Source: Paenibacillus sp. FSL R5-0517 (lineage in GTDB: Bacteria > Bacillota > Bacilli > Paenibacillales > Paenibacillaceae). Taken from it: a DNA stretch of 64,000 bases. Under the pieces are notes generated by a model. It made no database searches and was not told where the DNA came from. It saw only the letters and a list, made by a program, of their open reading frames with translations. The stretch is taken from assembly GCF_037974355.1 (NCBI RefSeq), contig NZ_CP150235.1:2976001-3040000 (forward strand). Direction: 5' to 3'. Both the position numbers and the translations under genes were made by a program. Numbering within the stretch: position 1 is the stretch's first letter; every line of letters begins with the position of its first letter. Below are positions 18,835-20,739 of the stretch, one piece after another.

Positions 18835-18863
18835 TTGACAGGGTGGAATTGGAAATTTATAAT
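18835..18863 (+). promoter_or_regulatory. Consensus promoter of the ABC-F leader
   Basis: TTGACA (18835-18840), exactly 17 bp, TATAAT (18858-18863). Both hexamers match the sigma-A consensus perfectly. Such a strong promoter is typical of genes held off by attenuation. Confidence 0.9.
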
Positions 18864-18910
18864 TGGAATTGTACATCTATTACCTGATAATGAAAGGTGG
18901 ATTATTGAAC

Positions 18911-18955
18911 ATGACGAATGCGATGAGACTGCGTTTCTTTCCTTTGAATCGGTAA
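18911..18955 (+). CDS. Leader peptide 1 of the ABC-F gene
   Basis: A 14-codon ORF, MTNAMRLRFFPLNR, with AAAGGTGG 10 nt upstream. The MRLR core is the Arg-X-Arg macrolide-arrest motif and strongly resembles the ErmD leader peptide (MTHSMRLR...). CCTTTGAA at its 3' end (18941-18948) pairs with TTCAAAGG (18965-18972). A stalled ribosome would free the latter, whose CAAAGGC (18967-18973) can pair with GCCTTTG (19077-19083) in the terminator loop and 5' arm. After TAA the frame continues as LNTFKGSDR to a TAG at 18983. Translation is inferred, not shown. Confidence 0.85.
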   Translation: MTNAMRLRFFPLNR

Positions 18956-19069
18956 TTGAATACGTTCAAAGGCTCTGACCGTTAGTTCAGAGTAAACGGG
19001 ATCAGTCTGTCATTTTCAATTATCCTGACCTTATATACATGGTTTAACTTGTATTCTCGTTTACATTGG

Positions 19070-19097
19070 ATCACAGGCCTTTGGTCTGTGATTTTTT
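19070..19097 (+). terminator. Attenuator terminator of the ABC-F leader
   Basis: A 10-bp stem, ATCACAGGCC/GGTCTGTGAT (one G-U), with a TTT loop and T6. It lies 115 bp after leader peptide 1 and 170 bp before the gene, so it must be read through for expression. Confidence 0.88.
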
Positions 19098-19161
19098 GGT
19101 TTACTTATCACGAGTCTGAGCCGATATGATGCTCAATAGAGACCTCAGGAGGTACACCGCT

Positions 19162-19185
19162 ATGATGACATTACTATTCTATTGA
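19162..19185 (+). CDS. Leader peptide 2 of the ABC-F gene
   Basis: A seven-codon ORF, MMTLLFY, with a perfect AGGAGG 9-12 nt upstream. Its 3' end (19179-19193) is segment 1 of a hairpin set that reaches to the SD of the ABC-F gene. Position and pairing match translation-attenuation leaders of erm genes. Confidence 0.75.
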   Translation: MMTLLFY

Positions 19186-19262
19186 TACGAGCTGGCACGA
19201 TAAGCTCGTATCGATAGAAGTGTTCTTCGCTATCGATACGAAATAATTCTTATTTCGGAGGT
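19179..19262 (+). promoter_or_regulatory. Translation attenuator with mutually exclusive hairpins
   Basis: Segment 1 (19179-19193) pairs with segment 2 (19203-19217) over 15 bp with one wobble. Part of segment 2 (19207-19217) can instead pair with segment 3 (19230-19240) over 11 perfect bp. CGAAATAA (19239-19246) pairs with TTATTTCG (19250-19257), which touches the first base of the SD GGAGGT (19257-19262). A ribosome paused on leader 2 would free segment 2, favour 2:3 and open the SD, as in ermC. Confidence 0.8.
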
Positions 19263-19269
19263 AGCGAAT

Positions 19270-20739
19270 ATGGAAAAGATATGTTTTGAATTAGTGCAGG
19301 TTGAAATGACCTATATGGATAAAGCAGTTCTGAACATTGAGCGACTGGCCGTGCATCAACTGGATCGCATCGGTGTAGTGGGTGGTAATGGTCAGGGTAA
19401 AAGTACATTATTGAAACTCATTGCGGGACAGATCCAGCCAACAGCCGGAAAGGTAAAACGTTACGCAGAGTTTGGTTACATGGAACAAGTAGAACCACCC
19501 CAGCCAAACGAAAATCTGGAGGTTGACGGGGCTTTACTCAGCAAATTGGCGATTCCTCAACATGATAAATCATGGAGTGGCGGAGAACAGACCCGTTTGA
19601 AACTGGCTCAATTGTTCACTCATTACCATGAAGTATTATTACTGGATGAACCCACAACCCATCTGGACCAAGAGGGCATTACATTTTTACTGGATGAATT
19701 GCGGTATTACTATGGGGCAATCGTGCTGATCAGTCATGACCGTGCGGTTCTGGATGAACTGGTGACCACGATCTGGGAAATTCATCAGGGAGAAGTCCAC
19801 GTATATACCGGTAACTATAGTGATTATCAGGAACAGAAGAGGCTGGAGCGTGAACAGCAACACCTGGCCCATGAACAATTCTCCAAAGAGAAAAGAAGAT
19901 TGGAGCTGGCCGCCCAGGAAAAGATGAAGAAAGCCGAGAAAATAACGCAGGCTGGAAACATGTCCAAAAAAGAATCCAAGGCAAAAGCAAACCGCATGTT
20001 TGAGACCAAATCCAAAGGTACCAGTCAAAAAGCAGTGCATCGTGCTGCTAAAGCGATTCAACAACGCATGCAACAACTTCAAGAGGTGAGTGCGGTGCAG
20101 GAGGATCGACCGATTATCTTCCGTCAGCCGAAGACATTGGAGTTACACAACCGATTTCCAATTATGGCAGATCGCCTTACACTTGAAGTGGGTGGAAACA
20201 TATTATTGGAGGATGCAAGTTTTCAAATTCCGTTAAAACAAAAAATAGCGATAACCGGAACCAATGGCAGCGGGAAAAGCACATTGCTTAACCATGTTTT
20301 CCGTGCTGGAGATGGAATCACGATGTCTCCAAAAGCAAAGATCGGTTATTTTCAGCAAATGAGCTATCGTTTCACGATGAAAGATACTGTATTACAATTT
20401 CTGAAAAATCGTTCGGAATATGAGGAATCAGAGCTTAGAAGTGCGTTGCACGCGATGCAGTTTACAGGGAATGACTTGCTCAAGAATGTGGGAACATTAA
20501 GTGGAGGAGAAGCGATTCGTCTTCAATTATGTTATTTGTTTCTTGGGCAATATAACATTCTATTGTTGGATGAGCCGACGAATTTTCTTGATATGCATGC
20601 CTTGGAAGCGTTGGAGCGTTTTATCAAGGCGTATGAAGGAACGATTCTCTATGTATCTCATGACCAGAGGTTTGTTGAAAATACAGCGGATCAACAATTT
20701 CAGATTGCGGAGCGTCAATTAATTCGGGTGAATATATAA
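19270..20739 (+). CDS. ABC-F ribosomal protection protein
   Basis: A 489-residue cytosolic protein with two ATP-binding cassettes and no membrane segments. NBD1 has Walker A GGNGQGKST (38-46), signature SGGEQ (103-107) and LLLDEP (123-128). A long, highly charged linker (about 185-290) corresponds to the antibiotic-resistance domain that reaches the peptidyl-transferase centre. NBD2 has GTNGSGKST, TLSGGE and LLLDEPTNFLD. Length and short linker fit the Vga/Lsa/Msr/VmlR resistance group rather than housekeeping Ettp-, Uup- or YkpA-type proteins. Two upstream attenuators imply induction by ribosome-targeting drugs. The macrolide-type leader suggests macrolides as inducer; which drugs it protects against cannot be read from sequence. 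The start ATG follows CGGAGGT by 7-8 nt. Confidence 0.88.
   Translation: MEKICFELVQVEMTYMDKAVLNIERLAVHQLDRIGVVGGNGQGKSTLLKLIAGQIQPTAGKVKRYAEFGYMEQVEPPQPNENLEVDGALLSKLAIPQHDKSWSGGEQTRLKLAQLFTHYHEVLLLDEPTTHLDQEGITFLLDELRYYYGAIVLISHDRAVLDELVTTIWEIHQGEVHVYTGNYSDYQEQKRLEREQQHLAHEQFSKEKRRLELAAQEKMKKAEKITQAGNMSKKESKAKANRMFETKSKGTSQKAVHRAAKAIQQRMQQLQEVSAVQEDRPIIFRQPKTLELHNRFPIMADRLTLEVGGNILLEDASFQIPLKQKIAITGTNGSGKSTLLNHVFRAGDGITMSPKAKIGYFQQMSYRFTMKDTVLQFLKNRSEYEESELRSALHAMQFTGNDLLKNVGTLSGGEAIRLQLCYLFLGQYNILLLDEPTNFLDMHALEALERFIKAYEGTILYVSHDQRFVENTADQQFQIAERQLIRVNI

Follow-up and report, generated by a model that had tools for sequence, protein, structure and literature searches.

What controls the chromosomal msr gene of the soil bacterium Paenibacillus sp. 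FSL R5-0517, and why is this single gene preceded by two leader peptides? Msr proteins confer resistance to macrolides and streptogramin B. Within the window, by which we mean the whole stretch of 64,000 nucleotides that was analysed, we read positions 18835-19269 on the plus strand, between a promoter and a gene for an Msr-family ABC-F protein. The original prediction placed a transcription attenuator and then a translation attenuator before one ABC-F gene, and sequence, structure and wide comparative evidence all agree with it: two complete attenuators sit between the promoter and msr, beyond what chance would give. The gene product reaches 739.7 bits against NF000168 (curated cut-off 680), which places it in the Msr family, and its best PDB match is 5zlu. 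In the plasmid set, the nearest named relative of the gene is an annotated msr(G) (70% identity), and, judged by its nearest loci, the genome falls with the Paenibacillus amylolyticus/xylanexedens group. A Vga/VmlR identity of the gene was rejected (Vga_all 446.5 bits, cut-off 725; VmlR-type absent from the best matches). The earlier comparison with VmlR is thus apt for the mechanism and not for the protein family. Sister loci likewise carry TTGACA and TATAAT 5' of leader 1. In an Rfam 15 scan of the window at gathering score, neither attenuator was matched; the sole match in the window is a T-box leader (RF00230, 37614-37889, 106.4 bits). The features are as follows.

18835-18863, + strand: promoter, TTGACA-17-TATAAT, 12/12 of the sigma-A consensus
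18893-18900, + strand: Shine-Dalgarno sequence (SD) of leader 1, AAAGGTGG, read from the sequence; 18899-18909 doubles as the 5' arm of helix A
18911-18955, + strand: leader peptide 1, MTNAMRLRFFPLNR-stop, RLR class, 9/14 residues as in ErmDL MTHSMRLRFPTLNQ
18899-19025, + strand: anti-antiterminator hairpin, helices A-D (folding, RNAalifold, arm swaps)
18899-18909:19015-19025, + strand: helix A, leader-1 ribosome-binding site with a downstream strand
18926-18931:19003-19008, + strand: helix B, its 5' side being the Arg6-Leu7 codons
18942-18948:18965-18971, + strand: helix C
18973-18978:18987-18992, + strand: helix D
18985-19001, + strand: antiterminator 5' strand, GTTCAGAGTAAACGGGA (duplex against shuffles, arm swaps)
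19055-19072, + strand: antiterminator 3' strand, TCTCGTTTACATTGGATC, running into the terminator 5' arm (duplex against shuffles, arm swaps)
19068-19097, + strand: intrinsic terminator, stem 19068-19094, T run to about 19097
19147-19152, + strand: SD of leader 2, AGGAGG, read from the sequence
19162-19185, + strand: leader peptide 2, MMTLLFY-stop, family consensus xxLLF[FY]-stop
19177-19193, + strand: segment 1, overlapping the end of leader 2 (folding, 24-locus pairing counts)
19203-19219, + strand: segment 2, partner of 1 when off and of 3 when on (folding, 24-locus pairing counts)
19226-19246, + strand: segment 3 (folding, 24-locus pairing counts)
19250-19268, + strand: segment 4, holding the msr SD (GGAGG within 19257-19262; folding, pairing counts, opening energy)
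19270-20739, + strand: msr, Msr-family ABC-F ribosomal protection protein, 489 aa (NF000168)

The first layer opens with a short, SD-led reading frame with Arg-X-Arg near codons 6-8, as in leaders of the ErmDL/ErmK class, and both the place of this leader and its ErmDL-type nature had been recognized correctly, as had the terminator (given before as 19070-19097). The RNA of this region (18870-19105) folds with -69.4 kcal/mol, compared to a dinucleotide-shuffle mean of -50.3 (z -4.1). In an alignment of 24 loci, RNAalifold found unprompted a stem that joins the RLR codons to GGGAxxAGTCT. Helices B, C, and D are 93-99% paired, and covariation links the wobble base of the Leu7 codon to its partner, with double changes in 8 of the 24 loci. 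The arms of helix A, taken from 66 loci with varied downstream genes, pair better with their cognate partners than with permuted ones (mean -16.4 vs. -11.1 kcal/mol, z -14.5). Similarly, the antiterminator duplex is stronger than its dinucleotide-shuffled counterparts, by over 2 sd in 31 of 32 loci (mean z -4.7), its cognate strands pair better than swapped strands (z -3.6), and a terminator-like hairpin lies 3' of leader 1 in all 33 loci scanned. Downstream of leader 1, antiterminator and intrinsic terminator are mutually exclusive, as in other RLR attenuators. The antiterminator had been placed at 18967-18973:19077-19083. These 7 bp exist, and the fold of 18946-19082 (past the leader, before the terminator 3' arm) gives the antiterminator helix with CAAAGGC:GCCUUU as an outer extension, but they do not form the conserved switch: among the eight closest loci this pairing occurs only in the window and in L012, the other six carry GGCCGTGG or similar, and the conserved pairing is 18985-19001:19055-19072. 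When only the ribosome footprint is blocked, some of the terminator 5' arm is still tied up in a different local helix in the equilibrium fold of the partial transcript, and the antiterminator is the best fold only if the leader region upstream of the ribosome is omitted. As a route to the antiterminator, the equilibrium fold with a blocked footprint was therefore rejected, and the case for layer 1 rests on the co-transcriptional order and on comparative pairing. Many layer-1 leaders of Bacillaceae and Caryophanaceae loci (L016, L017, L020, L026, and others) have an extra terminator-like hairpin, AGAAAGGCGGA..TCTGCCTTTC with a T run, 5' of the main terminator; the Paenibacillus clade to which the window belongs lacks it.

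In the second layer, MMTLLFY and its perfect AGGAGG were found where they had been predicted. In the off state, segments 1 and 2 pair with a core at 19184-19193:19203-19212, extended in the window to 17 bp with one G-U (19177-19193:19203-19219) and not 15 bp as first counted, while segments 3 and 4 pair at 19229-19234:19260-19265 and 19239-19244:19252-19257; segment 4 contains the msr SD. In the on state, segments 2 and 3 pair at 19206-19215:19232-19241 (11-12 bp in the window). The exclusive hairpins are present as placed, but the prediction had them end at the SD and missed segment 4, which sequesters the SD in 3:4, rather than the SD lying merely at the end of 2:3. The layer-2 RNA folds with -51.8 kcal/mol, compared to a dinucleotide-shuffle mean of -31.7 (z -5.4). 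Column-shuffle statistics on heavily deduplicated leader-2 helices are too weak, as most pairs are invariant, and pairing was counted over 24 loci instead: it is complete for 2:3 (240 of 240 cells) and for the SD-side helix of 3:4 (100%), and reaches 96% for 1:2. Changes on both sides are seen in 1:2, 2:3, and the inner helix of 3:4. The pairing 2:3 is nearly invariant, with one both-side change, which leaves conservation as its main support. Placing a ribosome footprint at Tyr7-stop lowers the cost of opening the SD and start codon from 11.8 to 5.0 kcal/mol and makes 2:3 the best fold, and in the last five codons of leader 2 pairwise changes are synonymous in 549 cases and not in 184. This arrangement, with 1:2 over the leader, 3:4 over the SD and 2:3 as the alternative, is of the same type as ermC, which is a four-segment translation attenuator.

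These data indicate that msr is likely controlled by a two-stage drug-induced attenuator, in which the leaders, promoter, terminator, exclusive helices and the evolutionary conservation of these are directly supported, while we infer the stalling, the inducers and the AND behavior. Without drug, leader 1 would be translated through, the anti-antiterminator hairpin including the RLR codons would form, and with it the terminator, so that RNA polymerase would stop. A macrolide-stalled ribosome on the RLR codons would occupy one arm of this hairpin, and the freed GUUCAGAGUAAACGGGA could pair with UCUCGUUUACAUUGGAUC at the terminator base, allowing the polymerase to continue. In the read-through mRNA, 1:2 and 3:4 are expected to form and bury the msr SD, until segment 1 is masked by a ribosome that has stalled on the last codons of leader 2 (Leu-Leu-Phe-Tyr-stop), upon which 2:3 would pair and free the SD. 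Msr would then be made only when both leaders stall, an AND gate with a tight off-state. For ErmDL/MefAL-type leaders, both stalling and transcription attenuation have been published (PMC10314930, PMC4335068). The presumed stall at the stop codon of leader 2 is modeled on MsrDL (MYLIFM), which stalls at its stop codon with erythromycin (PMC10314930). As a counterpoint, leader 2 has 7 codons and a UGA stop, compared to the tested MYLIFM-UAA, and a change of UAA to UGA in MsrDL lowered induction (PMC10314930).

Dozens of independent loci carry the two layers, again with compensatory changes. Of 52 related loci that were fetched, 49 are full, and 47 of these have the leader-2 element (xxLLF[FY]-stop and segments 1 to 4), about 100 nt 5' of the gene; the RLR leader is recognized by motif in 34 of the 49, with L039 added by covariance model. 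The covariance models for layer 2 (R1) and layer 1 (R2), whose E-values are rough, have one match each in the genome of the window. We surveyed 75 genomes of the genus. An Msr with at least 68% identity occurs in 25 of them; R1 lies directly 5' of the gene in every one, and R2 is present in 24. R1 without msr is found in two genomes (L109:787-893, L110:783-889), 5' of a stand-alone mef and with the leader MMMLLFF. Among 399 Bacilli genomes, R1 is present in 23 (11 genera) and R2 in 76 (43 genera). The genes 3' of R2 (L122-L187) include msr, mef, mph, erm, and genes for an RlmA-type 23S methyltransferase, an hflX-like protein (L168, L170, L187) and an MFS exporter (L185), the last two labels being read from the protein sequence only. 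The Peribacillus msr loci L027, L029, L043, L045, and L049 have another first leader (MAFLQLY) and another terminator, as though an exchange of the sensor in layer 1 had taken place. Of the distant Msr genes of the genus (43-45% identity, L111-L115), four of five show an RLR leader; their second leader, MRYMHWYFFI or a similar peptide, lies 5' of an SD-complementary stem. Plasmid msr(E) has the leaders MHSIRIR and MMLAFVFT (L063:1899-1976), with an SD-complementary stem (TCCTGTTTGCT:AGCTAAACAGGA) 3' of the second. Since the distant Msr genes of the genus and plasmid msr(E) each show two leaders, this arrangement recurs in several Msr branches; staphylococcal msr(A) has only MTASMRLK. A split or shortened msr frame with the attenuator kept occurs in close relatives (G050, G005, G051, G054, G068; L041, L054, L043), reflecting either real decay or assembly errors.

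The gene order in relatives points to an origin of the stacked form. In eight loci (L015, L019, L022, L024, L038, L039, L046, L061) leader 1 and the msr leader 2 are separated by mef, L024 being a mef-containing locus without a layer-1 match, and in Planococcus (L033-L036) mph takes the place of mef between the RLR leader and leader 2. In L024, L038, L039, L046, and L061, mef has an LLF-type leader of its own, which in L039 is MMTLLFY, identical to leader 2 of the window. The mef module is complete in these loci except L046, and its segment 4 reads GTATCGAT (GTATCAAT in L061) instead of GGTAGC, with the pairing to segment 3 retained. In Peribacillus L045 and L049 no more than a remnant separates two LLF modules, and L029 has a single one, of which the leader matches the first module and the hairpin the second. 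Sister species with and without mef exist (L046, L026). The stacked form before one gene thus looks like operon control, probably after mef loss; we infer that it arises when mef is lost between the repeated LLF modules, as may have happened in the window. This suggests a third reason for two layers, namely that each may guard a different level of a present or past mef/mph-msr operon.

Alternatively, only one layer may be active, in which case the RLR attenuator would be the sensor and the leader-2 region a remnant of the operon from before mef loss, or a constitutive damper of translation. Leader 2 does precede mef in relatives as well, and the mef-less loci resemble recombination products of two repeated modules, as the comparison of L029 with L049 illustrates. 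Nevertheless, this explanation is quite unlikely, as 47 of 49 loci, some of them without leader 1, retain leader 2 and the three helices with compensatory changes, and the codon changes in LLF[FY]-stop are mostly synonymous (549 vs. 184), where a remnant would decay. A second transcription attenuator in the place of layer 2, as reported for msrD with MsrDL, is very improbable. The gene family, the position and a hydrophobic leader ending in L[LI]F.-stop are shared with msrD, which has a terminator there, but in the window and its relatives the hairpins between leader 2 and msr all lack a following T run, so that layer 2 is not a terminator, and the SD is inside segment 4. Layer 2 as a terminator was rejected on this ground.

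Another possibility, which we regard as fairly unlikely, is that the layers sense different drugs, for example macrolides and ketolides by the RLR leader and lincosamides, streptogramins or another tunnel binder by LLFY, with an OR-like, broadened or graded response instead of AND. The leader motifs differ in kind, Peribacillus has the other peptide, MAFLQLY, in layer 1, and MsrDL and ErmDL do not have the same drug range, cladinose being required by MsrDL and not by ErmDL (PMC10314930). However, the layers are in series and layer 2 cannot rescue a terminated RNA, so a drug acting on leader 2 only would yield little msr. Also, a lincosamide sensor would be useless, as the resistance given by Msr is to macrolides and streptogramin B. 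Two-stage control in which both leaders must stall is the reading that we prefer. More tentatively, and rather as a possibility than as a probable account, macrolide resistance in Bacilli may be built on two RNA sensors that can be reused together. One would be the widespread RLR attenuator of transcription, which would switch on msr, mef, mph, erm, rlmA-like and hflX-like genes alike, and the other a gene-level LLF[FY]-stop translation attenuator as a second lock on msr and mef, with the window as an AND gate formed by deletion of mef between two copies of the second module.

Each type of layer is already known (ermD/ermK, ermC), and so is msrD with two leaders. New are the serial transcription-plus-translation variant and the layer-1 RNA, which is absent from Rfam and precedes erm, mph, mef, rlmA-like and hflX-like genes too. 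In the open-access literature we found no description of two serial leaders acting on transcription and then on translation of one msr, nor of a Bacillales msr leader, an mph leader or an RLR RNA family shared across macrolide resistance genes. With two unlike attenuation mechanisms and two sensors before one resistance gene, AND logic against the cost of leaky expression becomes testable. Environmental Bacilli are a likely reservoir of clinical mef-msr operons, and the layer-1 RNA also provides a sequence handle for the inducible macrolide resistance genes, of several enzyme classes, that they carry.

Among the known systems, RLR transcription attenuators have been described for ermK and mef(E) (PMC4335068). 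Layer 1 is like ermK/ermD/ermJ and mef(E)L/mef(A)L in its RLR leader, with the 9/14 residues of ErmDL, and in its terminator-based control, and erm genes are among those downstream of layer-1 covariance-model matches; unlike these systems, the window adds a translational layer with its own leader. Layer 2 is like the ermC/cat type, where the leader overlaps segment 1, 1:2 and 3:4 form the off state with the SD in 3:4, and 2:3 forms the on state, but its leader ends in LLFY-stop, stalling is predicted at the stop codon and the whole layer is preceded by a transcription attenuator. In erm(B) two leader peptides also stand in series before one resistance gene, and their action is reported as translational attenuation (PMC8274638), without the transcription layer of the window. 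The vmlR gene of Bacillus subtilis has one tripeptide uORF, a transcription switch and an SD-sequestering hairpin (PMC9226507). The window shares with it an ABC-F gene with anti-antiterminator, antiterminator, terminator and SD-sequestering hairpin; however, where vmlR (a Vga/VmlR-type gene) has its single uORF inside the anti-antiterminator controlling both layers, the window has two leaders, two separable RNA switches and an Msr-type gene. In the streptococcal mef(A)-msr(D) operon, MefAL and MsrDL flank mef(A), both layers are reported as transcriptional, and dual control of one msr has already been proposed (PMC10314930). In a phage-borne msr(D) (L064:2449-2549), the msr(D) SD (CAGGAGGAA) has its complement in the bases that directly follow the MsrDL stop codon (TTCTTCCTG), so the reported terminator may be accompanied by a translational component. 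Like msr(D), the window has an Msr-family gene and two leaders, of which the first is RLR and the second short and hydrophobic, ending in L[LI]F.-stop. MsrDL is a hydrophobic hexapeptide with UAA followed by an intrinsic terminator, where the window has the heptapeptide MMTLLFY with UGA and no terminator. Unlike msr(D), the window places both layers before one gene and makes the second translational, and it thereby offers a comparative frame for the known two-leader control of streptococcal msrD.
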